NCBI GenBank assembly: GCA_005787565.1
Contig: SYAP01000304.1
Span: 1 to 34,668 of the forward strand
Direction of reading: 5' to 3'
DNA length: 34,668 nt
Source: Verrucomicrobiaceae bacterium
GTDB taxonomy: Bacteria > Verrucomicrobiota > Verrucomicrobiia > Verrucomicrobiales > Akkermansiaceae
Shown here one piece after another: positions 4,229-34,668 of this stretch (position 1 is the first letter of the stretch; every line of letters starts with the position of its first letter). The notes under the pieces are model-generated. The model was not told the origin of the DNA, did not search any database, and saw only the letters and a list, made by a program, of their open reading frames with translations. The translations under genes were made by a program, and so were the position numbers.

Positions 4229-4249
4229 TCGATAGCGTGGACCCGGGCT

Positions 4250-7369: not shown

Positions 7370-7414
7370 CAGTATCCACCCGCGTCTCCCAAGCAGTTTA
7401 CCATCGATCCATTC

Positions 7415-7428
7415 GGATCGGCACAATC
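7415..7428. promoter_or_regulatory. GGATCGGCACAATC element upstream of the large GH29 gene
   Basis: This 14-mer differs at one base from GGATTGGCACAATC at 10795-10808. Each lies about 45-80 bp upstream of the start codon of a minus-strand gene in the fucosidase locus. It may be an operator or promoter element shared by the locus. The function is inferred only from recurrence and position. Confidence 0.3.
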
Positions 7429-10919: not shown

Positions 10920-12089
10920 TCAACCGAGTGAGTCCCGGTGATCCCTTCGATAAGTGGCGGGAGTGCATCCCATCTGCTTGGAAAACACCGCGCTGAGATA
11001 CTGCTCGCTACCAAAGCCCGCCTGATGGGCGACCGACCGGATCGGCAACTTGGTTCTGGAGAGAAGTTCGCAGGCCCGGGCAATGCGAACACGGCGGATT
11101 TCCTGGTCGATCGGTCTGCCGATCGTCTCTTTGAATCGTTTGTCCAGAGTGCCACGCGACAGGCCGATACGGCGGCAAACCGCTTCGGCCTGAAGTCCCT
11201 GACAGGCCTCCCGGCGGATGATGGTGAGCGACTGGGCCAACAACGGGTCCGCGACGCACAGTAGATCGGTCGATTGCCTGGCAACGAGGCCTACCGGCCG
11301 GACGATCTGCCTTGGGGGAACATCTTTCTTGTGGGCCATCAGCCGATCAAGCGCTGCGGCGGCGCTATATCCGATCTGGAATTTGCCTTGTTCGATGCTG
11401 GAAAGCGGTGGATCCGCCAGTTCGCAAATCACATCATTGTCCACACCCAGGACAGCCACATCATCCGGCACCCGAAGACCTAACAGCTTACAGGCCTCGA
11501 TCACATGCCTGGCGCGATAATCGTAACAGCCCATGATGCCAACCGGGAGAGGCAACTTTACGAGCCAGGTGGAAAGCTCCTGCAGGACACGCGGCCAATG
11601 GGTGGCGGTGGAGTGCCTGCCGTGGAAAACGGAGCAATCGAAGCCGGCATCCATCAGACGCTTGGTGAAACCGATTTTCCGCTGGGTCATCCAAAGGTTG
11701 GTCCGGTTCTCCGGGTAACCGCAGAATGCGAAGTGCTTCAGGCCCTTCTCGATGAAGTGCTCCGCAGCCAGCTTTCCAATGGCGTTGTCATCCGTGGCGA
11801 TATAGGGAATTCCGGACGCCGGATCATGCCAACCGCTACCGCCTCCAACGGCGATGATGGGTTTGCGCACCTGCCGTAGCGCTCTCACGACGCGCGGATT
11901 GTCGAAGTTCACAATCAGGCCATCACCTTCCCACGCTTTGAAATCCGGAATCCGTTGATGCTCCACCTCCTCGACGAAAACCGACCAGTCGTGGCGCTCC
12001 CGGACATAGGCAGCAATTCCCTGAAGCAGACCCCGATCAAAGTTCTGCCAGAGTTGGAGAATCACAGCTACTTTTCTCGGTGTTTTCAT
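10920..12089 (-). CDS. XylR-type transcriptional regulator (LacI-like sensor + AraC HTH)
   Basis: 389 aa from ATG 12089. Residues about 7-270 form a periplasmic-binding-protein-like sensor as in LacI/XylR (VAVILQLWQNFDRGLLQGI at the start, then GIMGCYDYRARHVIEAC and VAVLGVDNDVICELADPPLSS). Residues about 285-385 carry a double helix-turn-helix AraC domain (CRRIGLSRGTLDKRFKETIG and IRSVAHQAGFGSEQYLSAVFSK). This arrangement matches the E. coli XylR family, in which a sugar bound by the first domain controls DNA binding by the second. It is transcribed in the same direction as the fucosidase locus immediately downstream, so a role as its sugar-responsive activator is likely. The ligand may be fucose or a related sugar, but that is inferred from the neighbours only. 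Confidence 0.92.
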   Translation of the reverse strand: MKTPRKVAVILQLWQNFDRGLLQGIAAYVRERHDWSVFVEEVEHQRIPDFKAWEGDGLIVNFDNPRVVRALRQVRKPIIAVGGGSGWHDPASGIPYIATDDNAIGKLAAEHFIEKGLKHFAFCGYPENRTNLWMTQRKIGFTKRLMDAGFDCSVFHGRHSTATHWPRVLQELSTWLVKLPLPVGIMGCYDYRARHVIEACKLLGLRVPDDVAVLGVDNDVICELADPPLSSIEQGKFQIGYSAAAALDRLMAHKKDVPPRQIVRPVGLVARQSTDLLCVADPLLAQSLTIIRREACQGLQAEAVCRRIGLSRGTLDKRFKETIGRPIDQEIRRVRIARACELLSRTKLPIRSVAHQAGFGSEQYLSAVFSKQMGCTPATYRRDHRDSLG

Positions 12090-13520: not shown

Positions 13521-13985
13521 TCAAGGGGTGGCGATGAGCGGAGTGGTCAGGCCTTCCGAGGAGGCGAGGGCCGCTTGGTTGGAGTCGAAGGTGAGGAAGT
13601 CGGTAGCACCGAGGGTGAGAGCGGTAGCGACGTGGAGAATGTCGAAGCTGCGGTGGCCGCCGATGAAGGTGCGGGATTTGGAGAGACGCTCGGCGGTGAA
13701 GAGGATGTCGGTGAGGTCGCAGTGGACGGTGAGTATGGAACCGGATTCGATGTGCTCGGATATCTTGTTGATCATTCTATCCGCCTCGTGCAGCGGGTAG
13801 CCGACTTGCCGGTTGTGGGAATGGCGGAAGGCGTGGAAACGGGCGGACTGCCTGAATTCCCACAAGAGGAGCCGGGTGACATGGAGCGGTTCATCCATGG
13901 CAGCACGCCAGTTGATGGCTTTTGGGGAGTTGTCCTGCGTCCGGTAGATGGCGCAGAGAAACGAGGTGTCCGGATAAGCCTTCAT
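13521..13985 (-). CDS. vapC: VapC-like PIN-domain toxin
   Basis: 154 aa from ATG 13985. It carries the acidic PIN residues expected of a Mg-dependent RNase: Asp6 (YPDTSFL), Glu43 (LLWEFRQ), Asp115 (SFDILHVATAL) and Asp134 (LTFDSNQ). The length is normal for VapC toxins, which cleave tRNA or rRNA. Its start overlaps the stop of the antitoxin gene by 4 bp (ATGA), giving translational coupling typical of type II toxin-antitoxin pairs. No key residue is missing, so it is probably active when freed from the antitoxin. The RNA target cannot be read from the sequence. Confidence 0.9.
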   Translation of the reverse strand: MKAYPDTSFLCAIYRTQDNSPKAINWRAAMDEPLHVTRLLLWEFRQSARFHAFRHSHNRQVGYPLHEADRMINKISEHIESGSILTVHCDLTDILFTAERLSKSRTFIGGHRSFDILHVATALTLGATDFLTFDSNQAALASSEGLTTPLIATP

Positions 13986-14239
13986 GAGCGGTCTCCGAGT
14001 TCGGCTTCCCGCATTTCACGCACTTCCTCGGCACTGAAGACGCGGTCACCCCAGGTTTCCTTCATCCAGCGCATGTGGGCGTCGGGATCGAATTTCGCTG
14101 CGCCACCAGCAGGACGGGGCGGGGAGAGGTGGGCGACGGGTTTGCCGTGTTTGGTGATCTCGATTTCCTGGCCATCGGCCAACCAGGCCTCCACTTTGGC
14201 GAAGTCGTAACGCAAGTCTCTGACGGTGAGTGTGTGCAT
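13982..14239 (-). CDS. Type II antitoxin, Phd/YefM-VapB-like
   Basis: About 85 aa from ATG 14239. The N-terminal half (MHTLTVRDLRYDFAKVEAWLADGQEIEITKHGKPVAHLSP, read in parts) has the classic Phd/YefM pattern: a short strand, a helix, then the G-x-E-I-x-I-T-x-x-G-K-P-V-A strand that makes the DNA-binding dimer. The C-terminal half (WMKETWGDRVFSAEEVREMREAE) is the charged helix that would neutralise the PIN toxin. Start 14239 is preferred over ATG 14260 or GTG 14263, because the palindromic operator (14242-14265) then lies just upstream instead of inside the gene. It overlaps the toxin start by 4 bp. Confidence 0.87.
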   Translation of the reverse strand: MHTLTVRDLRYDFAKVEAWLADGQEIEITKHGKPVAHLSPPRPAGGAAKFDPDAHMRWMKETWGDRVFSAEEVREMREAELGDRS

Positions 14240-14241
14240 GG

Positions 14242-14265
14242 TTGTGATGATTTGTTTCATCACAA
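14242..14265. promoter_or_regulatory. Perfect inverted repeat, probable TA autoregulation operator
   Basis: TTGTGATGA and TCATCACAA are perfect 9-bp inverted arms separated by 6 bp. The repeat lies directly upstream of the preferred antitoxin start. Phd/VapB-type antitoxins repress their own promoters by binding such palindromes, so this is the expected operator. Binding itself is inferred. Confidence 0.7.
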
Positions 14266-14314: not shown

Positions 14315-15616
14315 TTAACCGAGCTTGGAGATGGTTTGGAAGATGGCGGTGATCATGAGATAGGCCATGGCTCCGATGAGGCCGGCCATGATGATGAGGA
14401 CGGTGGGCATGATGAGGGCCATGATGCGTTGGAGGTCCTTGTCGAGTTCCTTGTCGTATCGCTCGGCGGCGCGGCGGAGGGATTGGTCGATTTTTCCGGT
14501 TTGTTCGCCGACGGAGATCATGTCGATGAGGAGGGGCGGGAAGGCTCCGGTGCGGATGAGTGCTTTGGAGAAGGATCGGCCATCGCCGACTTGTTCGATG
14601 ACGCGGTTGAGTTCGGTGCGCAGGCCGCGGTTTTGGGTGGCGTCGCGTGAGAGTTCGAGGGAGCGGAGGAGTGGCAGGCCGTTTCCGACGAGGTTGGCCA
14701 TGGTTTCGAGGAACTGGACGTAGAAGCGGCTGGTGATGACGGGGCCGACGAGGGGGAGCTTGAGTTTCATGCGGTCCCACGCGGGTTTGTTGGCTTCGTT
14801 GTCTTTCCAGGCTTTGAAGAAGATGGCGGCGGCGATGAGGACGAGGATGACGACGAGCCACCACTTTTTGATGAAGTCGGAGGCGCCGATGAGGATGGCG
14901 GCTCCGAGGGGGATTTTTCCGCCGGTGCTGTCGATGAGGGAGGTGAGCTGGGGGATGAGGGTGGTGACGAAGACGATGGAGACCCCGATGCCGGCGAGGA
15001 CGAGGAAGGCCGGGTAGATCATCGCGAGGATGAGGCGGGCCTGGAGCTCGGCGAGGGTTTTGAGGTAGTGGGCCTGGCGTTTGAGGATGGTGTCGAGGGC
15101 GCCGGAGGCTTCACCGGCGGCGGCGAGGGAGCAGTAGAGGGCACCGAAGCTGGGGCTGACTTTTTTGAGGGCGACGGAGAAGTTCACGCCATCGCGGACG
15201 ATTTGGCGGATTTTGAAGGAGACGGCCTTGAGGTTGCCGAGTTCCTGGCGGTTTTCCATGGACTTGAGGGCGGGCTCAAGCTGGAGGCCGGCGGAGAGCA
15301 TGTCGGAGAGTTCTTCGGTGAAGAGGACGACCTCCTGGCGTTTGAGTTTGATGGGGCCATCGGGGACGGCGTCTTCCTTTTCCTTGGCGGCGGCTTTGGC
15401 GCTGGGTTTCGCCGAGGGTTTTGGGGAGTCGGCGGTGTTGGATTTTTCCTTGCCGCGTTTGGCGACGGGAGCGGAGGAGGTGGACTCGCGGAGGTTGACG
15501 GGTTGGAGGCCTTTGCGATCGAGCATGCGCAGCGCTTCGGGACGGTCCGCGGCGTCGATTTCACCGGTGGTGACGGAGCCGTTGGTGGCGAGGGCTTTGT
15601 AGGCGAAGATGGGCAT
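14315..15616 (-). CDS. Type II secretion / type IV pilus inner-membrane platform protein (GspF/PilC)
   Basis: 433 aa from ATG 15616. It starts with the conserved FAYKAL-type N-terminus. A Lys/Pro/Ala-rich linker (about 50-85) and two T2SSF repeats follow. The first repeat contains GVNFSVALKKVSPSFGALYCSLAAAGEASGALD; the second contains GRSFSKALIRTGAFPPLLIDMISVGEQTGKID. Membrane segments follow each repeat (near 205-235, 250-270 and 400-425). The family forms the inner-membrane base that couples the assembly ATPase to pilin polymerisation. It lies 49 bp downstream of the ATPase gene on the same strand, an E-F operon. Pilins, secretin and prepilin peptidase are not adjacent. Confidence 0.95.
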   Translation of the reverse strand: MPIFAYKALATNGSVTTGEIDAADRPEALRMLDRKGLQPVNLRESTSSAPVAKRGKEKSNTADSPKPSAKPSAKAAAKEKEDAVPDGPIKLKRQEVVLFTEELSDMLSAGLQLEPALKSMENRQELGNLKAVSFKIRQIVRDGVNFSVALKKVSPSFGALYCSLAAAGEASGALDTILKRQAHYLKTLAELQARLILAMIYPAFLVLAGIGVSIVFVTTLIPQLTSLIDSTGGKIPLGAAILIGASDFIKKWWLVVILVLIAAAIFFKAWKDNEANKPAWDRMKLKLPLVGPVITSRFYVQFLETMANLVGNGLPLLRSLELSRDATQNRGLRTELNRVIEQVGDGRSFSKALIRTGAFPPLLIDMISVGEQTGKIDQSLRRAAERYDKELDKDLQRIMALIMPTVLIIMAGLIGAMAYLMITAIFQTISKLG

Positions 15617-15665
15617 GGGTGGTAAACGCTGAAAACTGAAATGCTGACCTGCTGAAAGTCGCGGA

Positions 15666-17387
15666 TCACTCGCCGCCGCCGATGTCGGAGGAGGTGACGG
15701 AGACGACTTCCTCGATGGTGGTTTCGCCTTTCATGACCTTGTGCCAGCCGTATCCGCGCATGGGGATGTAGCCGTCGCGGACGGCTTGGGCGCGGATGTC
15801 TGCGGCTTGGGCGGAGTGGGCGACGAGTTCCTGCATGGGCTGGGTGAGGAGGACGACTTCGTAAATGGCGAGTCGGCCGGCGAAGCCGGTGGAGCGGCAG
15901 CGGTCGCAGCCGCCGGGTTTGTTGGAGTAGGCCTGGCCGGCGAGGTTCATGGGGATGCCGAGTTCCATGCGGTCGGCATCGGAGACTTCGCGGGGAATTT
16001 TGCAGTGAGGGCAGAGGCGGCGAACGAGTCGCTGGGCGAGGAAGGCGCGGACTGCGGCGGAGACGAGGAAGGGCTCGACGCCCATGTCGACGAGACGGCT
16101 GATGCCGCCGATGGCATCGTTGGTGTGGAGAGTAGAGAACACCAAGTGACCTGTTAGAGAGGCGCGGATGGCGATCTCCGCAGTCTCAAGGTCGCGGATT
16201 TCCCCGATCATGACGATGTTGGGGTCGGCGCGGAGGATGGAGCGGAGGGCGGTGGCGAAGGTGAGGCCGATTTCGGATTTCACGGCGATCTGCATGACGC
16301 CGGTGAGTTTGTTTTCGACGGGATCCTCAACAGTGACGATGCGGCGCTCGGGGTGGTTGACCTCGCTGAGGAAGGAGTAGAGCGAGGTGGATTTACCGGA
16401 ACCGGTGGGGCCGGTGATGAGGATGATTCCGTTAGGAAGGTGGAGGAGTTGCTCGATTTTGCGGCGGACGAAGGATTCCATGCCGAGCTTGTCGAGGTTG
16501 AACTTTTCCTGGTTGAGGAGGCGGAGGGAGACGCTTTCGCCTTCGACGGTGGGGACGGTGGCTACGCGGACGTCGATGGTTTGGCCTTCGAACTGGAGGT
16601 TGATGCGGCCGTCCTGCGGGATGCGGCGCTCGGCGATGTCGAGGCGCGCCATGATTTTCAGACGGGCGATGACGGAGCTTTGGAGCGCCTTGATGTTTTC
16701 CGGCACGGCGATTTCGATGAGGCGGCCGTCAATGCGGTAGCGGATGCGGAGGTTGGTGGCGAGCGGTTCGACGTGGATGTCGGTCGCGCGCTGGTCGAGG
16801 GCTTCGCGGATGATCTGGTTGACGAATTTGACGACGCTGGCTTCCTCATCGTCGTCCTGATCGATGACGTTGGCTTCGTCCTCGCCGCTTTCGAGGTGGT
16901 CGTAGTCGAAGTCGCGGCCTTCGAGGATTTGCTCGAAGGTGTCGGCCCCGACGCCGTAGAGGCGGCGGAGGGCTTCATGAAGGCGCTTGCGAGAGGCCAT
17001 GCACCACTCGATGGGCAGGGCTAGCTCCTGGGCGGCGGCTTGGCGGGCGATGAGGTTGAAAGGGTCGAACGTGGCGATTTTCAGGCGTTTTTGATCGCCT
17101 TCGCCCTCGATGGCGACGGGGAGAAGTCGGTGCCGAAGGGCGATGCGCGGTCCGCAGGCCTCGCGGAGGGGAAGCGGAAGTTCGGCGACGGGAATGCTGT
17201 CGAGCCACTCGATGCCGAGGTCGCGGGCGAGTTCCCGCAGGTAGGCTTCCTCTTCGACGACTCCGGCGTCGAGCAGGTCGTCGATGGGTGAACGTTGGCG
17301 CTGCGCCGCCCCTTTGAGGACTTCGGAAAGTGCGTGAAGGTCCTCGCATCCGGTGCGACGGGCAGGTTCGATCAGGAGTTGGGTCAT
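15666..17387 (-). CDS. Type II secretion / type IV pilus assembly ATPase (GspE/PilB)
   Basis: 573 aa from ATG 17387. The start was chosen because MTQLLIEPARRTGCEDL begins the family-like sequence; the frame stays open upstream but reads as low-complexity shadow. The N-terminal domain (about 1-145) is GspE-N-like. The ATPase domain has Walker A GPTGSGKS (about 326-333), the Asp box, Walker B (MIGEIRDLETAEIA) and a His box (TGHLVFSTLHTNDA). Two Cys pairs, CPHC (about 457) and CDRC (about 496), form the zinc-binding C-domain typical of GspE and PilB. The enzyme powers pilin polymerisation at the cytoplasmic face of the inner membrane. An acidic insert rich in Asp/Glu (about 155-180) precedes the core. 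GspF/PilC follows. Confidence 0.96.
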   Translation of the reverse strand: MTQLLIEPARRTGCEDLHALSEVLKGAAQRQRSPIDDLLDAGVVEEEAYLRELARDLGIEWLDSIPVAELPLPLREACGPRIALRHRLLPVAIEGEGDQKRLKIATFDPFNLIARQAAAQELALPIEWCMASRKRLHEALRRLYGVGADTFEQILEGRDFDYDHLESGEDEANVIDQDDDEEASVVKFVNQIIREALDQRATDIHVEPLATNLRIRYRIDGRLIEIAVPENIKALQSSVIARLKIMARLDIAERRIPQDGRINLQFEGQTIDVRVATVPTVEGESVSLRLLNQEKFNLDKLGMESFVRRKIEQLLHLPNGIILITGPTGSGKSTSLYSFLSEVNHPERRIVTVEDPVENKLTGVMQIAVKSEIGLTFATALRSILRADPNIVMIGEIRDLETAEIAIRASLTGHLVFSTLHTNDAIGGISRLVDMGVEPFLVSAAVRAFLAQRLVRRLCPHCKIPREVSDADRMELGIPMNLAGQAYSNKPGGCDRCRSTGFAGRLAIYEVVLLTQPMQELVAHSAQAADIRAQAVRDGYIPMRGYGWHKVMKGETTIEEVVSVTSSDIGGGE

Positions 17388-17533
17388 GCGGGCGACTTCT
17401 TCTCGTGTAAAAACGCCCCGGAGGCAATCTTGTCTCTCGAAAAACCACCGAATGCGGGATTGGGCCGGACGGGGAAGCCGCACAAACCTCTTGCATCGGT
17501 CGAGCGGGGTGCCGAAAAGGGGCGTCCACTCCG

Positions 17534-17740
17534 ATGATTTGGGCCAAGATCGCACTTTCCTTGTTTTTGCTGGCCTGGCTCGGGTTGGGACTGGTGCTGG
17601 TAGTGAAGGCTCAGTCGTTTTTCGGATTGCGGCGCGACGAACCGTGGGAGAGCCCGGGGGCGCGGTCGCTGAGTGTTGCGCACATCGCTTCGGTGTGGTT
17701 CGGGTTTTTCGCGCTCGGCGTGTATTTTTTGCTGCGCTGA
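17534..17740 (+). CDS. Small two-helix membrane protein
   Basis: 68 aa from ATG 17534. Two hydrophobic helices (about 5-25 and 48-66) flank a short charged loop (GLRRDEPWESPGARSL). I do not recognise a family. It is divergent from the ATPase gene and lies 65 bp upstream of the permease on the same strand, so it may be co-transcribed with it. No known motif indicates a function. Confidence 0.65.
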   Translation: MIWAKIALSLFLLAWLGLGLVLVVKAQSFFGLRRDEPWESPGARSLSVAHIASVWFGFFALGVYFLLR

Positions 17741-17805
17741 GCGATTGAGCGATTGGCCGGGGCCTTGGTTGACAGGCCCGATGGCAGCGGGTTTGCTCTG
17801 TGCCG

Positions 17806-18837
17806 ATGTCGCCTGAATCGCAGCAGGACTTTGCCTTGGCTTTCCTCAGCATCCTCTTCGAGGGGGCTCCGTTCATTTTGTTTGGAACGCTGGTGAGCGG
17901 ATTCATCGACATCTATTTGCCGCCGGGGACGATGGACCGCTTCCTGCCGAAGAACAAAACGCTGGCGGTGATGTCCGCGGGGCTGATGGGGGCGGTGTTT
18001 CCCGTTTGCGAATGCGCGGTGGTGCCGGTGATCCGGCGGCTGGTGAAAAAGGGGCTGCCGGTCTCATGCGCGATCACTTACATGCTGGCGGCGCCGATCG
18101 TGAATCCGATCACGGCGTTGAGCACGTGGAAGGCTTTCCAGGGACAGGGAGCCGGAATGATGACTTGTTCGCGACTTTTGTTAGGTTTCCTGATCGCGGT
18201 GGGAGTTGGACTGATTGTTTCGCGCCTGTCGTTGCGCTCGATCCTGAAACCCCAGCTCGCGGAGGAACTGGAAAACGATGCGGCGAGAAGCGCGGCGAAA
18301 GAGGCGAAGTCGCACAAGCCCGATCACAAGCACGATGGCTGCTGCGGGCATGATCACGGGGATCACCATCATCATGATCATGGCGATTGCGGGCACGACC
18401 ATGGTGCACCACAGGACAACCGGTTGGTGGCGGCGTTCCGTTCGGCGCTGAAGGATTTCGTGGACGTTGGCGTTTACTTCAGCATCGGCGTGGCGATCAC
18501 GGCGTTGTTCAACACGGGCATCGCCCCCGGGGCCGAGTGGCTGGATGGTTTGGCGCAGAATCCCTATCAGGCACCGGCAGCGCTGATGGTGCTGGCGTTC
18601 ATCCTGAGCCTTTGCAGCACATCGGACGCCTTCATCGCGGCGACGCTTCACAAGTTTTCCTGGGGCGCGAAACTGGCGTTCCTCACCTTCGGGCCGATGA
18701 TGGATGTGAAGCTGATCTTCCTCTATCAGACGGTGATGCGCCGCCGGTTCATTCTCTTTCTGGCGATCGGGATATTCCTGGCGATCGGCGGGATTTCGAT
18801 TTTCTGGCAGAATCTCTTGCTCTCTTCGATGAAATGA
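17806..18837 (+). CDS. UPF0718 (DUF318, YraQ-like) permease with His-rich cytoplasmic loop
   Basis: 343 aa from ATG 17806; GTG 17800 is an alternative. It has about eight hydrophobic segments in two halves. Each half carries the family's Ser/Cys-containing signature: FPVCECAVVPVIRRLVKKGLPVS in the first and LSLCSTSDAFIAATL in the second. The loop between halves (about 172-207) is packed with His, Asp and Cys (GCCGHDHG, DHHHHDHG, CGHDHG), suggesting binding of Zn, Cu or another divalent metal. The family is a putative permease with no settled substrate. Its stop overlaps the start of the next gene by 4 bp (ATGA), which matches the common UPF0718-TIGR03943 pairing. Confidence 0.88.
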   Translation: MSPESQQDFALAFLSILFEGAPFILFGTLVSGFIDIYLPPGTMDRFLPKNKTLAVMSAGLMGAVFPVCECAVVPVIRRLVKKGLPVSCAITYMLAAPIVNPITALSTWKAFQGQGAGMMTCSRLLLGFLIAVGVGLIVSRLSLRSILKPQLAEELENDAARSAAKEAKSHKPDHKHDGCCGHDHGDHHHHDHGDCGHDHGAPQDNRLVAAFRSALKDFVDVGVYFSIGVAITALFNTGIAPGAEWLDGLAQNPYQAPAALMVLAFILSLCSTSDAFIAATLHKFSWGAKLAFLTFGPMMDVKLIFLYQTVMRRRFILFLAIGIFLAIGGISIFWQNLLLSSMK

Positions 18838-21530: not shown

Positions 21531-24500
21531 TCAGATTTCGGCGGGGTTGATCCAACGGAAGGAAACTAGGGTGAAGCGGCGGCCGAAAAGCTTGTTGACA
21601 TCGCTCGACAAGCCGGCCGCTGAGGCTTCAGGCTCGTCCGAGGGATCGACATATTCGGGAACACGTTGCACGACGGCCTCGCACCAGGCTTTGGCAAGCA
21701 CCGTAGTCCCGTTAGACGCAAGAGCTTCTCCGTATCCGCGGATTTTGAAGGTATCGCCCCGCACGGTGGCCACCGCAGAGATCGCGGACATGAGGTCGCC
21801 TTGGGTAAGAATCGAAGGCGCACCCTCGGCTGACTGGCCGTCCATCACTTCGGGAGTGATCGTGCCCAGCTTGCGGGCGGCACCGATGGCGGAGGCGCTG
21901 ACCGGTTTCGAATCAAGAGCGTGGAACGGCTGGTTGACGCCCGATTTGTCGATGGCGGTTTGCAGCAGGCCGGACAGCCCTTGAAGCGATGAGCCGGGGC
22001 GGCGATTGACGAATTCCCCGAGTGTTAGAGAGGGGGCTTTATCCGCATTTCCGCGCGACTGGATTTCTGTAACGATGGCCCGGGCGAGGGTTTCAATCTG
22101 GCCATCATCGAGGGTGCGGAATCCCGCCCAGCGGATTTGCCCGAGAACGTCCGCTCCGGAATCACTGTCAGAATCGGCGGATCCCGCAAGAGGGAGGGAA
22201 GTCCGGGCGAAAGGTGTGCGGTCAGAGTTTTCCAATTTGCGGTTGCTCCAGCCATTGACCGATTGGTCACGCAGCGCGGAGAGCAATGCACGCCAGGCAT
22301 CGACCGAAGTGGAGTTGACATTGAATGCACCACGGATGCCCAGATGTGCGGCAAGCGAACGAGAGCGTTCGAGATCGTTTAGCCCGTCCAACTCGTTGAC
22401 GAATCGGGAGACATCTCCCGGATTGACCACAGGAGCTAGGCGGCTGTTCAGCGCGGGGCGCGTGCCATCAATCACGCCGGTCAAAACATCCTTACGGGTA
22501 CGGTTTCCACCGAAAATCTGCGTGTTGTAGTCGGTGATGGATGAGAAAAACCAGCCATCCCAAAGGACATCGTTGAGCAGATAGGAATGATCGAGAGCGG
22601 TGGTGCCTCCCAACAGGCGGCTGATGCTACCGACTGGAATCAGCGGATGCGCACGGGAGTTTCCAAACGGATGCACAACCCGTGGCAAGACCGATCCCGA
22701 GATCAGATTGGAAGAAACCCAGTCGCCAAGGGATGATGCCGGGATCACCGGGACATGCATCATGGAAACATTGGTGGCACCCTCGGAAGATGTCTTGCTC
22801 GCGCCGAAAAAGCCTCGTTTGGTGTCAGGATCAATCTCGATACCCGGAAAACTGGTAAAGCTTGTTAGACTGATCAGCCGGACATCATAACTCTGGTTGG
22901 CCGGACCAACAACGGAGTGGGTTTGTTCCGCTCCCTCGATCACCGGGTTGTTATAGAGCCAGGGTTTGGTGTCATCCAGCGGATCCTTGGTCGTGCGTGC
23001 GCCCATCTCCAACATGGCGAACGGCTTTTTCAATCCGAGACTCTTGTCATCCGGCAGTTGGAGGGTGTCACTGACCGTGAATGAACGGGAAATCGTCGGG
23101 ACGTTGGGATATTCACTGATTTCATTGATCAGATCAGCGAACCGGAACTTATAACTCCGCAGGATATCCGATGTCACCGCCGTCGAGCGACTGGCTAGAA
23201 GATCGATCTGAAAATCAGGAACACCCGAGGCCCCGCCGGTGGTGCGTTCGGGCCTGATCTCGACGCGCACTTCGTCGGTTAGACGCATTGACAGAAATCC
23301 GCCGACGCCCGGCCGCTGACGATTGTTCGCGGCGTCCCATTCAAAGTCGTAAAGCGTGTCGCGCGGTCGGCTGGCGTAGCTCATGTGGTCGGTCTGCAGT
23401 CCCGCCCGCGCGTCCCAACCGGGAACGGCCTCAATGCCCCACTGGTTGTTCGTGCGGCGGTCGATGTTTCCGAAATCACTGCCCGCATTCCAATCGAAAA
23501 ACGAACGTGGCTCATAGCCATTTCCAATTCCGGTTTCGTATCCCCATGTCCATGCATTCTCAATGCGCGGAGAAAACACCTTCACCTCGCCGGGCAACAA
23601 ACGAAGGGAGGACGCGGCGCGCTCGGAGCTGCCATCTGTTAGTTGCAGCGTGAAAAACTTCCGGGCATTGAGATTCTTCTCGTTCGCAATCTGGAATTGC
23701 GCGAGACCATGGAATTTACCGCTCGCCATTTCCGGACGGTAGTAAACAGACGTGCTTTTTTGCTTATCCACTTTCATCAGGCGAAAACCCACCGGCGGAT
23801 CCCAAATCCGGATACGCATGTTGCGCAAATCCAGCCCCACGTCGTATGGATTGTAGAGCGTGATTACCGGATCGTATGCAAGATGGGGAACCGCATGGAA
23901 AGCGTTGCCACGCGGCTCAGCCATCGTGTTGTGAAAATCCACTCGATCCCTGATGTGATGACGGTGTGAGACTACTGAAAACACCAACTGGAATTTTGCC
24001 ACCACCGGAAGTAAACGCTCTCGCTGCGGCGACGTGTCGATACCGACTGAGTTGGGTGATGTCTCGGCCGTCGGCGGCGAATAACGCGGAGTTCCGTTAG
24101 AAACCGTCTGGATGGTTTTGTATTTCCGGTAGTGGTCGTAAAGATATCTCCATCTGGGAGCACCCTCGCGGATGCTGAAATAGGGAGTTTCATCCGCAAA
24201 GGCCGTCGATGGAAAGGCGGTCGCCTCGAACAATGATGTAAGATCACCTTTCAAACCGCCGGTTGCCGGATTGGTCAGAAGCCCGAGGGAGCTTGTGGTG
24301 AAGTCATGAAATCTGCGGCGGAAGTCAGGCGCTGTGTTGTTTCCTGCCGGGATAACTGCGGTTTCCAGCGACACCAAATTCTTCGGCTCCGCGAGGCTCT
24401 CCAATTCGCTGGATAGAGAATCGGCACGATACCGGTAAGGTGCCGTCCGAGAGGCGACTTCCTCCGCCTTCGTGGGTGCCGCTAATGGATCTCCGAGATC

Positions 24501-25103
24501 TATCGCAGCCTTGGTGCTTTCGTCAAAAACCGCCCACGCCAATCCTCCTCGCAAGCTCCCGCTGCTCACCTGCACTTTCTGAGCCTTCATCGAGTTGGAT
24601 CGACCGTCGTTCTGCAACGCACCTACCAACTCAACCACATCATTTCCCGCAGCTTGCGAGGGGAGGTCGAACGACTCCGCCCCGGCTGGCGTCGCGCTTG
24701 AAACCAACCAGCTTCGAAACTTCGCTGCCTTCTGCGTATAGTCCGGAGCCCCGCCAGAGCCCGGCGTCCAACGCCACGATTCCCACGCGCCGGTCAAATG
24801 TGGACGTGTCGCTCCCGGAATCACCGCAGATGCAGGTGCCGAAATCGACTGATCCGTCCCAAGCGTCGCCTGCAATTCACCAAGCGCCAACATCAGCGAA
24901 AGCCGCGCGTTTCCTCTCGCCAACGCCATCGCATCGCCCTGCCCAGATGATCGCAAACTCACCGAGGAAAGCGTCAGCAAAGCGAGCGCGATCATGGTCA
25001 TCAGAACCATAAGCAAAACGGTCACCACCAACGCGAATCCGCGCGGCTGTCGCCCAGTTTGGCGAACGCGAATCTTGGACAAAAATGGAATGTGGATTTT
25101 CAT
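21531..25103 (-). CDS. Stand-alone Verru_Chthon cassette protein A-like, very large
   Basis: 1,190 aa from ATG 25103, chosen because RGFALVVTVLLMVLMTMIALALLTLSSVSLRSS then falls near residues 20-52. That is the N-terminal membrane helix and conserved SLRSS/RGNARLSLMLALGELQ start I associate with Verru_Chthon cassette protein A (TIGR02600). The large exported part has many WxxR, Gly/Asn-rich and aromatic segments (RMRIWDPPVGFRLM, YDFEWDAANNRQRPG) and no catalytic motif I can name. It also has stretches resembling minor-pilin (GspK-like) organisation, such as a late GDTFKIRGYGEAL block. Partner genes B, C and D are absent here. Secreted or surface assembly is inferred. Codon use is less C-biased than in the 29-34 kb cassette. 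Confidence 0.8.
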   Translation of the reverse strand: MKIHIPFLSKIRVRQTGRQPRGFALVVTVLLMVLMTMIALALLTLSSVSLRSSGQGDAMALARGNARLSLMLALGELQATLGTDQSISAPASAVIPGATRPHLTGAWESWRWTPGSGGAPDYTQKAAKFRSWLVSSATPAGAESFDLPSQAAGNDVVELVGALQNDGRSNSMKAQKVQVSSGSLRGGLAWAVFDESTKAAIDLGDPLAAPTKAEEVASRTAPYRYRADSLSSELESLAEPKNLVSLETAVIPAGNNTAPDFRRRFHDFTTSSLGLLTNPATGGLKGDLTSLFEATAFPSTAFADETPYFSIREGAPRWRYLYDHYRKYKTIQTVSNGTPRYSPPTAETSPNSVGIDTSPQRERLLPVVAKFQLVFSVVSHRHHIRDRVDFHNTMAEPRGNAFHAVPHLAYDPVITLYNPYDVGLDLRNMRIRIWDPPVGFRLMKVDKQKSTSVYYRPEMASGKFHGLAQFQIANEKNLNARKFFTLQLTDGSSERAASSLRLLPGEVKVFSPRIENAWTWGYETGIGNGYEPRSFFDWNAGSDFGNIDRRTNNQWGIEAVPGWDARAGLQTDHMSYASRPRDTLYDFEWDAANNRQRPGVGGFLSMRLTDEVRVEIRPERTTGGASGVPDFQIDLLASRSTAVTSDILRSYKFRFADLINEISEYPNVPTISRSFTVSDTLQLPDDKSLGLKKPFAMLEMGARTTKDPLDDTKPWLYNNPVIEGAEQTHSVVGPANQSYDVRLISLTSFTSFPGIEIDPDTKRGFFGASKTSSEGATNVSMMHVPVIPASSLGDWVSSNLISGSVLPRVVHPFGNSRAHPLIPVGSISRLLGGTTALDHSYLLNDVLWDGWFFSSITDYNTQIFGGNRTRKDVLTGVIDGTRPALNSRLAPVVNPGDVSRFVNELDGLNDLERSRSLAAHLGIRGAFNVNSTSVDAWRALLSALRDQSVNGWSNRKLENSDRTPFARTSLPLAGSADSDSDSGADVLGQIRWAGFRTLDDGQIETLARAIVTEIQSRGNADKAPSLTLGEFVNRRPGSSLQGLSGLLQTAIDKSGVNQPFHALDSKPVSASAIGAARKLGTITPEVMDGQSAEGAPSILTQGDLMSAISAVATVRGDTFKIRGYGEALASNGTTVLAKAWCEAVVQRVPEYVDPSDEPEASAAGLSSDVNKLFGRRFTLVSFRWINPAEI

Positions 25104-25306
25104 GGCTGGAGTTTCCGGTTGCGCCACCTGATGCACTCGGTCGACGCGAAGCAAATCTGCAGCCGCGTAACAGGGTGAATCAGGTGACTGATTCGCAAAG
25201 GCTTTGGCGTCTGAATCCGGAAGCTCTCCCACTCTTCCGAGCAGGTCCATGATTCAAATGGGTGACGTCCAAAGCGCCTCAACTCAACCTACGGTAAACA
25301 CCTGAT

Positions 25307-28858: not shown

Positions 28859-28966
28859 TTTCCCACCACTCCCCACACCCCCCTTGCCCAAAAGTGGCCG
28901 GAATGTCACTTTCACGCGCTTGGGAACCGCCGCTTGGCAGACGACGGCTGCTGTGTTTACTTCGTG

Positions 28967-28984
28967 TTGGCACAATCTCTGCAA
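28967..28984 (+). promoter_or_regulatory. Sigma-54 (RpoN) type promoter for the pilin-like operon
   Basis: TTGGCAC at 28967-28973 and CTGCAA at 28979-28984 place the invariant GG (28969-28970) and GC (28981-28982) exactly 10 bases apart, as sigma-54 promoters require. TGGCAC matches the consensus in full. Transcription would begin near 28994, about 24 bases before the ATG at 29018. Pilin genes are classical sigma-54 targets in other phyla. The match is sequence-only; a sigma-54 activator is not in the window. Confidence 0.65.
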
Positions 28985-29017
28985 CCATCGGGGCAATCAA
29001 AGACGTAAGAGAACACA

Positions 29018-29659
29018 ATGCAACTCTCCCTCAGGGCGCTCCCATCCGGGCGCAAAGCATTCACCATGACCGAAATGGTCGTGGTCATCGCCATCATCAC
29101 CATCCTGATGACCGCAGGAATCCGCATCCTCGGCGGAACCAGCAGCCAATCCAGAAAATCCGCCACCGACACCGTCACCGGCCTCATCGAACAAGCCCGC
29201 ACCACCGCCATCACCTCCCGCTCCATCATCGTCATGGCCATCGCCGAACCCGGTGACCTCCCCGCCTCCGACAAACGCTGCCGCGTCGGCCTCTTCCGCG
29301 TCCCCGCCTGGCCCGCAGACCCCACCACCGTCGAAGCCGTCCTCATCCGCCGCTGGCAAACCCTCCCCACCGGCGTCGTCCTCTTCCCCGGCGAAGTCGA
29401 CGGCATCCGCAACCCCCTCGACGAAGACCAAATCACCCTCCGCTACCGCGCCGGAAACAAAAACATCGAAGTCGTCGCCCACGCCATCGCCTTCGGCACC
29501 CGCGGCGGCCTCCACTTCCCGACCGGCTCAGACCCCGTCGCCCTCCGCGTCATCGAAGGCGCATACCGAAACGGCGCACCCTCCCCCAACTCCAAACCCA
29601 TCGCCGAAAATCGCCTCAAAATCGGCCGCGTCGTCGCACGCCCATACCGCACCAACTGA
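29018..29659 (+). CDS. Prepilin-like protein, Verru_Chthon cassette D-type
   Basis: 213 aa from ATG 29018; a weak AGAGA site lies 8 bases upstream. The N-terminus has a basic leader and the prepilin cleavage/methylation segment A/FTMTEMVVVIAIITILM, with Glu at position +5, so a prepilin peptidase should cut before Phe. The rest is the mixed alpha/beta body of a pseudopilin (TSRSIIVMAIAEPGDLP, then VVLFPGEVDGIRNP). I assign it to the cassette D family (TIGR02596) by position and N-terminal pattern. It is the first gene behind the sigma-54-like promoter. Its stop overlaps the next start by one base. Confidence 0.82.
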   Translation: MQLSLRALPSGRKAFTMTEMVVVIAIITILMTAGIRILGGTSSQSRKSATDTVTGLIEQARTTAITSRSIIVMAIAEPGDLPASDKRCRVGLFRVPAWPADPTTVEAVLIRRWQTLPTGVVLFPGEVDGIRNPLDEDQITLRYRAGNKNIEVVAHAIAFGTRGGLHFPTGSDPVALRVIEGAYRNGAPSPNSKPIAENRLKIGRVVARPYRTN

Positions 29660-30168
29660 TGAACCCCAATCCCCCAAAACCATCACCCCGCGGTGCCTCC
29701 CTCGTCGAAGCCATCGTCGCCGTCGGCGTCATGGCCCTCGCCGTCCCACTCGTCCTCGCCACACTCGTCCAATCCGGAGAAACCGGCCTCTCCTCCCAAG
29801 CCGAAACACGCTGTTCCTGGATCATCCCCGCATGCATGGACGAACTCCAAGCCACCCGCGACGGCAACGCCCAATTCCTCGACCCCACCCAGCCCGGACA
29901 AGCCTTCCCACCCTCCGGAGACGTCTGGGTCCTCGCCTTCTCCAACGACGGACGCACCCTCGGTAAAATCTCCAAAGCCGAATACGAAAAAGGCATCAAA
30001 ACCCTCACCAACCAGCCCGTCCGCTACCTCGCCACCCTCAAAGGCACACCCGCCACCCCAAAACCCGGCGTCACCCCCATGCTCCGCGTCGCCATCACCC
30101 TCGAATTCCCCGCCGCAGCCCCCGCCGCCAAACGCCAGAAAATCGAGTTCCACACCCGCATGCCATGA
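29659..30168 (+). CDS. Prepilin-like protein, Verru_Chthon cassette B-type
   Basis: 169 aa from ATG 29659. A short basic/Pro-rich leader is followed by the prepilin segment G/ASLVEAIVAVGVMALAVPLVL, with Glu at +5 and Gly at -1. The body contains CSWIIPACMDELQATRDGN, a stretch I associate with the cassette B family (TIGR02598), and a strand-rich end (PMLRVAITLEFP). It is expected to be an inner-membrane pseudopilin exposed to the periplasm before assembly. It overlaps the previous gene by 1 bp and the next by 4 bp. This tight packing indicates one co-regulated unit. Confidence 0.82.
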   Translation: MNPNPPKPSPRGASLVEAIVAVGVMALAVPLVLATLVQSGETGLSSQAETRCSWIIPACMDELQATRDGNAQFLDPTQPGQAFPPSGDVWVLAFSNDGRTLGKISKAEYEKGIKTLTNQPVRYLATLKGTPATPKPGVTPMLRVAITLEFPAAAPAAKRQKIEFHTRMP

Positions 30169-30926
30169 CGCCACACCGCACATCGCCACGCGGCTTTACC
30201 CTCGTCGAACTCATGGCCTCCATGGCCGTCGGCATGATCGTACTCCTCATCGCCGTCTCCGTCCTCGGCTCCACTGGCGATGGCTACGAACGCGTCGGCG
30301 GCGGCGTCGGTGCCGAACGCGAAGCCCGCGCACTCATCACCCAACTCACCGCAGACCTCGCCACCGCACGCTTCAACAAAGACACCGTCTTCGAAAAAAG
30401 CTCCGCCAACTGGCCCACCGACCGCCTCGCATTCCTCACCCTCCAACCCTCCGACGCACAATCCGACACCGGCCGCATCGGCGACCTCTGCGCCGTCAAC
30501 TACTACATCAAAGACCTCCAGATCGGCAACAAAACCGTCCGCTGCCTCATGCGCGGATTCCGCGAAAGCGAAGAAACCTTCCAAGCCCTCCGCAACGGCA
30601 AACTCGACACCCTCTTCACACCCCTCGACCGCGACGAACCCGTCGCCTTCGACGTCCTCTCCTTCGAAGCACGCCCCAAATCCCGCGGAACCTCCGGAAA
30701 CATCGACGACTGGCAGAAATCCGACGACCAAGGCCCGCAAATCCTCGACGTCAAACTCATCGTCGCCCGCCGCGAACTCGCCGGCAAACTCAACACCACC
30801 TCCGACTGGGACGGCGCCGGAAAAACCGCACTCCTCCTCGGCCAACCCGCAGAAGCCCTCCGCAACCGCAACCTCGAAGCCTACGGAACCCTCATCCGCT
30901 TTGGAAACTCCCATGAAACCCCCTGA
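30165..30926 (+). CDS. Prepilin-like protein, Verru_Chthon cassette C-type
   Basis: 253 aa from ATG 30165. The prepilin segment is PRG/FTLVELMASMAVGMIVLLIAV, the closest to consensus in the operon (Gly -1, Phe +1, Glu +5). The body includes EREARALITQLTADLATARF and RTEW-free strand-rich parts such as LAFLTLQPSDAQ and YGTLIRFGN. The assignment to cassette C (TIGR02599) follows gene order and the minor-pilin (PilW/GspJ-like) pattern. The start overlaps cassette B by 4 bp, and its end overlaps the start of cassette A by 14 bp. Confidence 0.82.
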   Translation: MTPHRTSPRGFTLVELMASMAVGMIVLLIAVSVLGSTGDGYERVGGGVGAEREARALITQLTADLATARFNKDTVFEKSSANWPTDRLAFLTLQPSDAQSDTGRIGDLCAVNYYIKDLQIGNKTVRCLMRGFRESEETFQALRNGKLDTLFTPLDRDEPVAFDVLSFEARPKSRGTSGNIDDWQKSDDQGPQILDVKLIVARRELAGKLNTTSDWDGAGKTALLLGQPAEALRNRNLEAYGTLIRFGNSHETP

Positions 30927-33828
30927 AACACGACGGAACACCCCGTCCGCCACCCCCACAGGGCACCAGGGATTCACCCTGCCAGCCGTCCTCGTCGTCG
31001 CCGCAGCACTCCTCATCCTCGCCGTCGGCATCCTCACCATCACCGCCATCGAACGCCGCACCGCACGCTCCTACGTCGACCTCCAACGCGCCGAACTCGC
31101 CGCACGCGCCGGCCTCGAAGACATCAAAGGCATCCTCACCGCAGAAGCCGCCAACGACGACTTCATCATCCTCCAATCCACCCTCCCACAACCCATCGAA
31201 ATCGGCAAAACCCCAGCCCCACACCTCTTCCTCGCCCGCGGCAAAGCCAGCGGCCCCTCCCTCTCCTACCGCTACGTCCCACTCTTCAGCACCACCACCC
31301 AACCCGCCGAAACCCCCACCCTCACCACTCCCCCGCTCGATACCCTCGCCTCCTCAAACGCCAACGAACGCACCGACTTCAACACCCAACCCTTCCTCGA
31401 TAAATCCCGCGCCGCCTGGATCTACATCCAGGACGACAAAGGCCGCAACATCGGCCGCTACGCATACTTCGTCGAAGACCTCCAATCCAAACTCGACCCC
31501 GCACTCGCCGGCAACACCGAAGGCTCCGGCGGCACACACGCCCGCACCCCATGGCCCCACCCAGCCCCCGGCATCAACCCCACCCCCCCCGATGAAAATC
31601 GGCCCGCCCTCGACCAAGTCGCCCTCCACGCCATCGACCCCGCCGCCACCGCAGACATCCCCGGCCCACTCGGAAAAACCCTCATCACCGGCCGCCCCCT
31701 CCTCGTCTCCCCGGACTCCCTCCTCGCCGCCGCAGACATCAAACCTCCCCTCACCCGCGATCCCGCAGGCCGCCTCACCGACGTCAAAGCACGCGCCGTC
31801 GAAGAAAACCTCGCATCCTCCCTCCAACCCTACCTCGAACAACCCCTCATCCCCTACGCCCAAGGCATCTCCCCCACCGTCGCAGGACAACCCAAACTCA
31901 ACCTCAACGAACTCCTCTCCAAAGGCGACGACGCCGTCGCCGAAATGGCCGAATTCATCGACAAAGCCCTCCCACAATTCAAAACCCGCAAAGGCGGATT
32001 CCCCGACGACTACCTCCGCACCCTCGCCGCCAACGCCATCGACTACGCCGACGAAAACCCCAAATCCACCCTCCTCGAAGGCAGCCACCGCGGCCTCGAT
32101 GGATACCCTCTCGTCAGCGAATTCCTCATGCGCTTCCGCTGGGAAAACGTCCTCACCGAAAACGGCCGCAAATTCATCATCCTCAGCGCCACCACCTACG
32201 CCGAACTCTGGAACATGTCCGACCAAACCGTCGCCGGATCCTGCGAACTCAGCTACGAAACCAAATACGAATTCCCCCTCGGTGCCAACCCCTCCGTCAC
32301 CTTCGACGACATGGCGGACGCCACACCCAAACTCCCCGAAAGCGACGGCTACCGCTGGTTCCCCGCCATCAGCGTCTCCCTCCGCCCCAACGAATACAAA
32401 GTCTTCAACTTCGGCACCGTCACCTACAAATTCGACGCCGGCCCCGCAGCCGTCTTCGTCCCCAGCCCCCTCGAACTCGGCGGTGAAACCTACGGCTCCT
32501 CCGGCGCAGGCTACCGCATGAAATGGAACGGCCAACTCGTCGACCAATCACGCGGCGGCGTCCACCGCAACAACTCCAGCCTCAACTACCCCACCAACAC
32601 CGAAAACCAACCCCGCCAGCGCATCCGCACCACCATCCCCTGCCACTCCCACACCCGCGGACCCAACCTCTTCAAAAACAACATGGGAGACCCCCGCATG
32701 GCCTACTACCTCGAATCCCCACAGGACGCCAACGTCTACCCCGGAAACTACAGCCCTAACAGACGAAACATCCGCTGGGACACCATCTACAAAAGCGACG
32801 GCGCCACCAAACCCAAAGTCTACGGCCGCGTCCTCCCCTCCGAATGGCCCGATGGCGGCCACAACTCACTCTACGGATCTAACACCTTCATCACCACCAG
32901 CCAGCTCGTCAACCCGGACGACGCCCGCTTCTTCAGCGGCCTCCCCACCCCGCGCCGCGAAGAAGCACCCCTCCGCCTATCCAACCAGAACCGCTTCTAC
33001 AGCGCCACCGAACTCGGCCGCGTCTACGACCCCATTATGTGGGAAACCGCCCTCGCCACCCCAGGCCAGTCATGGGGCGACGTCACCTCATCCACCCCCT
33101 CCACCACCGACTTCGGCGGCGGAAACTCCCTCCGCATCGGCCGCCCCGAACACCCCCGCTTCGACAAACCCGAAACCCACGCCGCCCGCTTGCTGGACCT
33201 CTTCCACGCCGGCATCCCCCGCTCCGAAGACCTCGCCGAACGCGAAGGCCCCGTCGTCCGCATCGAAGGACACATCAACCTCAACACCGCCTCCCGCGAC
33301 GCCCTCCGCGCCGTCGTCGCCGGCGAACTCGTCATGGACCCCCTCCTCGCACGCCGAACCTCGGAAAACCATGAAACCAACGTCCGCATGGCCCCACCCA
33401 CCCAGACCCTCAAACTCAACGCCCCCACCAACTCCCTCCAGGCAGACCGCATCGCCGACGCCATCATCCGCTCCCGCCCCTTCGACACCACCTCCTCCGC
33501 CGCAGGTGCCCGCGAATCAGACGGAACCCTCGTCTTCGGCAACAAAGCCATCTACCCCGACAACACCAAAATCCACTGGACCGACTCCGCCGCCGAGGAA
33601 CTCTTCGCCCGCCTCTACGAATCCTCCACCGTCCGCTCCCGCAACTACCGCGTCTGGGTCGTCGGCCAATCCATCGCACCCACCACCTCCACCTCCGCCA
33701 CCCCCGAAGTCCTCGCCGAAGTCCGCCGCGTCTTCACCGTCTTCGCAGACCCCGGCGAACGCCAGCAAGACGGCTCCATCGACCCCTCCGAAACCCGCAT
33801 CAAGGTCCTCCATGAAAACGCTTACTAA
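30913..33828 (+). CDS. Large prepilin-like protein, Verru_Chthon cassette A-type
   Basis: 971 aa from ATG 30913, inside the previous gene. Its N-terminus carries a prepilin-like segment (G/FTLPAVLVVAAALLILAVGI) with Pro instead of Glu after the usual Phe-Thr-Leu, so the +5 Glu is absent. A missing Glu5 is typical of tip-located minor pilins such as GspK. The very long exported body has RAELAARAGLEDIKGIL near the helix, a middle region with many Tyr/Trp blocks, and a C-terminal GspK-like part (HINLNTASRDALRAVVAGELV). This suits a pilus-tip or surface protein of the cassette A family (TIGR02600). It overlaps the exported-protein gene by 17 bp. Codon use is extremely C-ending. Confidence 0.85.
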   Translation: MKPPETRRNTPSATPTGHQGFTLPAVLVVAAALLILAVGILTITAIERRTARSYVDLQRAELAARAGLEDIKGILTAEAANDDFIILQSTLPQPIEIGKTPAPHLFLARGKASGPSLSYRYVPLFSTTTQPAETPTLTTPPLDTLASSNANERTDFNTQPFLDKSRAAWIYIQDDKGRNIGRYAYFVEDLQSKLDPALAGNTEGSGGTHARTPWPHPAPGINPTPPDENRPALDQVALHAIDPAATADIPGPLGKTLITGRPLLVSPDSLLAAADIKPPLTRDPAGRLTDVKARAVEENLASSLQPYLEQPLIPYAQGISPTVAGQPKLNLNELLSKGDDAVAEMAEFIDKALPQFKTRKGGFPDDYLRTLAANAIDYADENPKSTLLEGSHRGLDGYPLVSEFLMRFRWENVLTENGRKFIILSATTYAELWNMSDQTVAGSCELSYETKYEFPLGANPSVTFDDMADATPKLPESDGYRWFPAISVSLRPNEYKVFNFGTVTYKFDAGPAAVFVPSPLELGGETYGSSGAGYRMKWNGQLVDQSRGGVHRNNSSLNYPTNTENQPRQRIRTTIPCHSHTRGPNLFKNNMGDPRMAYYLESPQDANVYPGNYSPNRRNIRWDTIYKSDGATKPKVYGRVLPSEWPDGGHNSLYGSNTFITTSQLVNPDDARFFSGLPTPRREEAPLRLSNQNRFYSATELGRVYDPIMWETALATPGQSWGDVTSSTPSTTDFGGGNSLRIGRPEHPRFDKPETHAARLLDLFHAGIPRSEDLAEREGPVVRIEGHINLNTASRDALRAVVAGELVMDPLLARRTSENHETNVRMAPPTQTLKLNAPTNSLQADRIADAIIRSRPFDTTSSAAGARESDGTLVFGNKAIYPDNTKIHWTDSAAEELFARLYESSTVRSRNYRVWVVGQSIAPTTSTSATPEVLAEVRRVFTVFADPGERQQDGSIDPSETRIKVLHENAY

Positions 33829-34501
33829 ACTCCTCCTCGCCTCCCTCCTCCTCGCGGCACCCACCCTCACCCACGCCCAGGAAGACGGCCCACCCCAAGT
33901 CGGCTTCATCCGCATCGTCAACGCCGTCGCCCCCGGCCTCGGCCTCGCCAACGTCTTCGTCGATGGCGACGACATCTTCCCCAAAGGCTACCAACTCGGC
34001 CAACGCACCGGCGGCATCGGCCTCAAAGCCGGCGCACACTCCATCGAAGTCCGCAAAGAAGGCGTCGAATCCGGAACCACCCGCATCAGCCTCGCCACCG
34101 GCGAAACCATGACCCTCATCGCCTTCGCCGAACGCCTCCCCGTCGAAAAAGTCGACGATCCCCCACGCTGGGCCGTCAAAATCCTCCGCCTCAAACAAAG
34201 CGACCCCGAACGCGGCTACCGCATGACCCTCGTCTCCGTCTGCGGAAAACCCGAAGTCAAAGTCCAAGCCGCCGTCGCCGGAAAAGCCGACATCGAATCC
34301 ACCACCGTCAAACGCCTCGCCGTCTCCAGCATCGACCTCGGCCGCAACCGCGCAGAAGTCATGGTCAAAGCCGACGACGAAATCATCACCACCGTCTCCC
34401 CCGAAGACCCCGGCAACTACGTCGTCGTCCTCTACGCCGACCCCGAAGGAAAAACCAAAGCCATCTCCTTCTTCGACCCCAAATTCGTCATCGCCGGCTA
34501 A
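33812..34501 (+). CDS. Exported DUF4397-like protein at the end of the cassette operon
   Basis: 229 aa from ATG 33812, which overlaps the cassette A stop by 17 bp. The signal peptide is TLTKLLLASLLLAAPTLTHAQ. Residues about 28-90 (VGFIRIVNAVAPGLGLANVFVDG, then GLKAGAHSIEVRKEG) resemble DUF4397, a beta-sandwich found in secreted proteins of bacteria with pili or adhesins. The remainder is another strand-rich domain. The last operon position and tight overlap argue for co-function with the pilin-like proteins. A similar pairing of cassette A with an exported protein is present at 20.7-25.1 kb. Confidence 0.76.
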   Translation: MKTLTKLLLASLLLAAPTLTHAQEDGPPQVGFIRIVNAVAPGLGLANVFVDGDDIFPKGYQLGQRTGGIGLKAGAHSIEVRKEGVESGTTRISLATGETMTLIAFAERLPVEKVDDPPRWAVKILRLKQSDPERGYRMTLVSVCGKPEVKVQAAVAGKADIESTTVKRLAVSSIDLGRNRAEVMVKADDEIITTVSPEDPGNYVVVLYADPEGKTKAISFFDPKFVIAG

Positions 34502-34668
34502 TCCCACCAACCCACCCACCCCCCATCCAAGATACCCTACCACGCTCCAGAGCTTTTATTGTTTCCATCCTTGCCTCCCACCGCCCTTTCCGCTTCCCTC
34601 CCCCCAAGCGCCGCCGCCGCTGGACCCTCCAACCCCCCCCCCCCCCCCCCGCCCGGCCCCCAGCCACC
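34502..34668. other. Non-coding C-rich end of the window
   Basis: No gene or clear terminator is visible in these 167 bases. The strand is almost purine-free in places and ends in an 18-base C run and further C-rich sequence. This suggests low-quality or low-complexity sequence at a contig end. Confidence 0.5.
34633..34650. repeat. 18-base poly-C tract
   Basis: An uninterrupted run of 18 C at the extreme end of the window, flanked by more C-rich sequence. It may be a real homopolymer or a sequencing/assembly artefact at the end of a contig. Confidence 0.85.

Follow-up and report, generated by a model that had tools for sequence, protein, structure and literature searches.

The window analysed here is a contig of 34,668 nt (C300; SYAP01000304.1) from a draft Verrucomicrobiaceae genome of 4.03 Mb, 78% complete, whose relatives are Verrucomicrobiales of the Akkermansiaceae/Luteolibacter/Haloferula type. 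It carries five overlapping genes, called H, I, J, K and E in operon order, preceded by a putative sigma-54 promoter (Table 1). The gene structure was as a first-pass annotation of the bare sequence had described it. The five genes occupy 29018-34501 on the forward strand and overlap by exactly 1, 4, 14 and 17 bp. H, I and J start with prepilin N-termini having a glutamate at position 5 (Glu5; KAFTMTE, RGASLVE and RGFTLVE, respectively), K has a prepilin-like helix in which position 5 is an alanine (QGFTLPA), and the fifth protein, E, bears an export signal peptide recognisable by eye (...THA-Q).

Table 1. Genes of the operon and sequence elements upstream of it (positions in the window)
Feature	Position	Strand	Description
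Inverted repeat AGTGGCCGGAATGTCACT	28893..28910	+	candidate activator-binding site (upstream activating sequence, UAS), 57 bp before the -24 element
Operon-specific block TGTTTACTTCGTGT	28954..28967	+	directly upstream of the -24 element
Sigma-54 -24/-12 element TGGCACAATCTCTGCA	28968..28983	+	putative; GG-N10-GC within TGGCAY-N6-TGCW
Gene H, 213 aa	29018..29659	+	GspH/FimU-like minor (pseudo)pilin; Glu5 prepilin motif
Gene I, 169 aa	29659..30168	+	GspI/PilV-like minor (pseudo)pilin; Glu5 motif, operon position
Gene J, 253 aa	30165..30926	+	GspJ/PilW-like minor (pseudo)pilin; profile matches, operon position
Gene K, 971 aa	30913..33828	+	giant protein of predicted GspK fold, putative tip protein; no Glu5
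Insert in K, residues ~404-780 (limits approximate)	32122..33252	+	predicted beta-sandwich and loops that separate the helical halves of the GspK fold
Gene E, 229 aa	33812..34501	+	exported protein, two predicted beta-sandwich domains; first 17 bp shared with K

H, I, J and K follow one another as minor pseudopilin genes do, in the order of gspHIJK of E. coli. K was matched in 38 of 59 searched genomes, mainly from one genus, that of the window organism, and 79 homologous loci were found in named genome contigs. The operon is conserved across the Verrucomicrobiales, with the order H-I-J-K-E kept in all 35 loci where the five genes were detected; no clear conserved neighbours were seen outside these genes in the homologous loci compared. 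Glu5 was present in most H, I and J orthologs. The GspH model TIGR01708 matched 17 of 24 H orthologs (E≤0.01), and gene I matched an XpsI model with an E-value of 0.002, under the cut-off. In filaments of this kind the tip, or priming, complex is formed by minor pilins and GspK-type proteins (PMC6211770, PMC7541494), a priming complex being described for the type IVa pili of Myxococcus (PMC7541494). With the GspH-I-J-K pseudopilus tip the operon shares the gene order and the short overlaps; it differs in having an extra gene, E, and a sigma-54 promoter, and in containing no gene of the gspC, D, E, F, G, L or M type.

We modelled K with AlphaFold2 from 46 sequences (predicted local distance difference test, pLDDT, 90.5; predicted template-modelling score, pTM, 0.88). 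When Foldseek candidates were realigned to this model, four GspK/XcpX entries came out on top, with Z scores of 15.4, 15.2, 15.0 and 14.7 over 224-259 residues, the next entry reaching only 4.3. The best match, 9a1f_T, aligned 259 residues over positions 20-971 of the model. In the Foldseek ranking itself GspK came 24th and no E-value was below 0.001; the clear separation appeared only after realignment. The GspK likeness of K is settled by this fold comparison, as sequence-only links to the solved GspK structures were uninformative, and so was a profile link to E. coli GspK, which was confined to the N-terminal helix. By sequence K is not a member of the GspK family NF037980, and it is GspK-like by its predicted fold. 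Its orthologs matched NF037980 in 40 of 46 cases (E≤0.01) and the Pfam T2SSK family PF03934 in 14 of 46 (E≤0.1), and, as in GspK, a glutamate is never found at position 5.

What sets K apart from solved GspK/XcpX proteins (PDB 3CI0, 5VTM, 9A1F; PMC6211770) is its length, 971 aa compared to ~310-330, and a predicted insert of ~375 residues, mainly beta. The GspK core appears split into helices at residues 238-379 and 795-903, around a beta region starting at about 397. An aspartate-rich motif, AIDYADENPKS..EGSHRGLDGYPLVSE, resembles the E. coli GspK region SIADYIDVDDSPRFHGAED (general form AIDYAD..G..G.D..P..SE), calcium binding being a trait of the GspK family; since the motif could be located in K, the insert was placed after it. 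For residues 397-664 the only matches, with glycosidase beta-sandwich domains, were weak and generic (Z ~4), and nothing firm about a ligand follows from them.

A comparable enlargement is found in ComZ of Thermus thermophilus, a GspK-like pilin with an additional beta domain, which fits best at the tip and can serve as a receptor (PMC6561018). Both proteins have a large beta domain inserted in a GspK-related pilin and are encoded with minor pilins; the ComZ domain is a beta-solenoid placed between the last two strands, whereas that of K is of beta-sandwich type and lies between helical halves. By the same reasoning as for ComZ, K would sit at the tip with its insert exposed, and it would in addition be too bulky for the shaft. 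A tip position of K is therefore plausible from its predicted fold and gene context, and the GspK fold supports the pseudopilus-type structure with a giant tip protein that had been proposed at first; the surface exposure of K is what we would infer from such a position.

The model of E (pLDDT 90.2) shows two beta-sandwich domains, which together resemble the extracellular domain of PepT1/PepT2 (Z ~14 over 170 residues) and singly AlgF and transthyretin (Z ~8). These matches give no function, because such arrangements are common. The 17-bp overlap between K and E was kept in 38 of 57 homologous operons, which suggests that translation of E is coupled to that of K. In the type IVa pilus operon fimU-pilV-pilW-pilX-pilY1-pilE, too, four minor pilin genes are followed by a gene for an exported protein, PilY1. 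The position of E fits this arrangement and its size, 229 aa, does not: judged by size, no search aimed at PilY1 having been made, the operon encodes no protein as large as PilY1, and the bulk of the tip would lie in K.

The operon had first been assigned to the Verru_Chthon families A to D (TIGR02600, TIGR02598, TIGR02599 and TIGR02596), with which its products share the phylum, prepilin-like N-terminal helices and a giant protein lacking Glu5. That name is wrong for these proteins, and family membership was rejected because scores were far under the curated cut-offs: H reached 20.7 of 70 bits with TIGR02596 and J 32.7 of 256.5 with TIGR02599, in both cases at the N-terminus only, within the prepilin helix region that such proteins share, and no window operon protein matched TIGR02598 or TIGR02600, or any of the four families over its full length. 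TIGR02600 did match 17 of 46 K orthologs (E≤0.01). The genome has about eleven other open reading frames of 1100-1250 aa that are Verru_Chthon_A-like and have a prepilin helix without Glu5. They are scattered, at 21531-25250 of the window (reverse strand) and at loci L003-L013; their loci showed no adjoining pilin-like genes and no NxNT motif of the GspK type, and the alignment of K to such a giant ends within 35 residues. That the operon is a Verru_Chthon cassette is already largely refuted, and we consider it very improbable. The term "Verru_Chthon" was not found in the open-licence PubMed Central (PMC) literature.

An ordinary gspG-H-I-J-K cluster, with a K of 312 aa, lies on contig C223; the operon of the window is therefore a second set. 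Contig C346 carries two PilB/GspE-type ATPases, a PilC/GspF protein and a GspG-like pilin, and the genome also has PilT-like ATPases and secretins. In the window, a GspE/PilB-type ATPase is paired with a GspF/PilC-type platform protein at 14315-17912 (reverse strand), 11-15 kb from the operon. In another reading, the genome would have two type II secretion systems, and the operon would form the pseudopilus tip of the second; the filament would act as a periplasmic piston, with the insert of K recognising or gating cargo and E being cargo or a periplasmic chaperone. This would agree with a K fold that is that of GspK and not of PilX, with the GspE/GspF pair in the same window and with the many hydrolases that such bacteria secrete, fucosidases being encoded in the window; it agrees less well with the complete ordinary gspGHIJK set elsewhere, with the lack of gspC, D, G, L or M in the operon, and with sigma-54 control, which is more usual for pilin genes. 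We regard it as possible, if rather unlikely.

We turn now to the promoter. The proposed -24/-12 element has indeed the exact GG-N10-GC spacing; it had been placed 24 bp before the leader, whereas 34 bp separate it from the ATG, and the figure of 24 bp is close to what separates the ATG from the predicted transcript start (28993-28995). Judged by the window sequence only, such an element is within chance (8 matches with at most 2 mismatches, 8.69 expected), and its significance comes from its conservation upstream of homologous operons. Sigma-54 scores of at least 14 were reached in 19 of 62 homologous upstream regions, versus 0.3% of random windows, and scores of at least 10 in 30 of 62, versus 2.3% (scores are relative, the weights being set after the published consensus; many loci are from related genomes, so that these regions are not independent events). 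The composite TTTACT-N6-TGGCA-N7-TGC, which includes the block next to the -24 element, was found 13 times in the 59 genomes and never in a reversed control. Eleven of the 13 were single copies, situated upstream of the operon except in G022 and G024, where they have a fitting place on the contig, that of G024 stopping ahead of a visible K. Among 17 distinct upstream regions picked by the TTTAC block alone, 14 had GG-N10-GC at the same place (chance 0.7%). The element is also kept between operons whose K proteins are only ~30% identical (L065, L070 and L222), which argues for selection. The conservation expected upstream of homologous cassettes was in this way borne out in part, the element being absent or decayed in about half of them.

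The gene for sigma-54, rpoN, is present in the genome, divided between an end of contig C49 and an end of contig C15; the two pieces cover profile positions 1-272 and 271-434. It was matched in 58 of the 59 genomes. Genome-wide, the -24/-12 pattern gave 32 matches against 9 for the reversed control, with sites before glnB-like (L095), glnA-like (L115) and rpoN (L091) genes; these last suggest nitrogen control and rpoN autoregulation.

Another observation made at sites of this type concerns an 85-nt hairpin RNA-like element, with stem GCGGTCCGACTGA...TCAGTCGGGCCGC, loop part GGTTAATGGGTTTTCC and a T-run. It occurs at L088 (C12:22550-22634, forward strand), L093, L113 (two copies) and L233-L262. 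It was found in 35 of 37 genomes of the genus, usually in several copies, and the 22 genomes from other genera had none. Of the 43 copies read, 23 immediately follow a sigma-54-type site. With a fold z-score of -3.6 and no Rfam match, it looks like an undescribed small RNA family, often driven by sigma-54.

Upstream of the operon, the inverted repeat TGTGAC-N6-GTCACA was present with at least 10 of 12 matches in 28 of 61 homologous regions, versus 1.3% of random windows; the window copy is weaker, with 9 of 12. In most cases the distance from the end of the repeat to TGG is 56-61 bp or 42-47 bp, two ranges that differ by roughly one turn of the helix, and sigma-54 activators bind at distances like these. 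A GAFTGA-type activator gene, a candidate regulator, was seen at two homologous loci only (L187 and L189), ~1.5-3 kb from the locus start. With rpoN present, the element conserved and the inverted repeat at fixed spacing, sigma-54 control of the operon is strongly supported by comparison of related sequences; the promoter architecture is supported by this conservation, and the start site would follow from it.

The TTTAC-block motif is more specific still: 19 of its 20 occurrences in 1.13 Mb are upstream of this operon, and the glnA and glnB sites of the window genome showed no such motif. To our knowledge, TTTACT next to -24 belongs to no sigma-54 promoter type. The block is kept where -24/-12 has decayed and is therefore a separate conserved part, which may be the site of an overlapping promoter or of another protein. 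We looked by eye for a partner hexamer with TTTACT as a sigma-70 -35 or -10, and no consistent one was seen. Alternatively, the promoter would not be of sigma-54 type at all, TTTACT belonging to a sigma-70 or extracytoplasmic function (ECF) promoter and TGGCAC-N6-TGCA to an operator. Such a promoter would explain why the block survives decay of -24/-12 (L160, L203 and L210) and why about half of the operons lack the latter. It would leave aside that, in spite of freely varying bases in between, TGGCA and TGC retain the GG-N10-GC spacing, that no -10-like hexamer was visible by eye 16-18 bp downstream of TTTACT, and that the glnA and glnB sites in this genome have a -24/-12 of the same form; the two types of promoter could also overlap. 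We find this alternative improbable.

We consider it quite probable that the operon encodes a second, specialised, activator-controlled minor-pilin tip complex of a type IV-pilus-family filament, expressed from a sigma-54 promoter. From the inverted repeat, at about -80 to -90, a bound AAA+ activator would remodel sigma-54 RNA polymerase, and transcription would begin ~25 nt before gene H. H, I and J would be minor pilins of the FimU/PilV/PilW or GspH/I/J type, K a tip subunit of GspK fold, much enlarged by a beta insert, and E an exported two-domain beta-sandwich protein, probably a partner of K. The set would prime and cap the filament, and the insert of K would present a binding surface, comparable to ComZ. 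The tip location, the ATPase and platform protein used, the ligand and the activator are what we infer from this scheme. In commensal Neisseria, only a single pilus locus, pilE, is governed by sigma-54 together with a dedicated activator (PMC6528607), which is a precedent for the regulation proposed here. There, the gene encodes a major pilin, whereas control would here fall on minor-pilin genes, with the TTTACT block as an extra part. No article with both "sigma 54" and "minor pseudopilin" was found in the open-licence PMC literature.

Several results weigh against this scheme. K reached only 24.3 of 130 bits with NF037980, over its N-terminal 76 residues, and matched no Pfam family, so that its relation to GspK rests on a predicted fold. 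The operon itself contains no machinery gene, and the linkage to the GspE/GspF pair of the window is not kept in relatives (in G004, and judging by contig also in G014 and G027, the pair is unlinked to the operon). We also rejected a shared control of further pilus or secretion loci, as none of 20 such stretches from G000, G004, G014 and G027 had the operon promoter. No activator gene generally adjoins the operon in the homologous loci compared. Finally, besides the missing or decayed -24/-12 in about half of the homologous operons, some (L160, L203, L210 and L213) lack GG-N10-GC and retain the inverted repeat together with all or most of the TTTAC block.

Elsewhere in the window, two adjoining proteins with alpha-L-fucosidase domains and F5/8-type domains are encoded at 2393-7426 (reverse strand), and an AraC/XylR-type regulator at 10920-12089. 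Beside the GspF gene, a toxin-antitoxin-like pair (PIN-like protein and Phd-like antitoxin) was recognised by eye at 13521-14263 (reverse strand). A C-run at 34634-34650, near the contig end, is probably an assembly limit.

A bolder version, which we hold to be unlikely, would see here a filament specific to a clade of Verrucomicrobiales, whose giant GspK-derived receptor binds, through its beta-sandwich insert, a ligand on a surface, for example a polysaccharide, and whose tip operon alone is switched by sigma-54, with TTTACT as a third essential element. Verrucomicrobiota have many pseudopilin genes with no known use; in the genome of one isolate, 67 homologs of a single pulG-like pseudopilin were counted (PMC13274419). 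The operon described here is a conserved set with an identifiable candidate tip protein and a defined putative promoter. Together with ComZ, K would make two GspK-type tip subunits that owe their size to an inserted domain, each built in its own way. In cultured relatives that have the element, such as Luteolibacter pohnpeiensis (L192), both the filament and the signal that induces it can now be tested.

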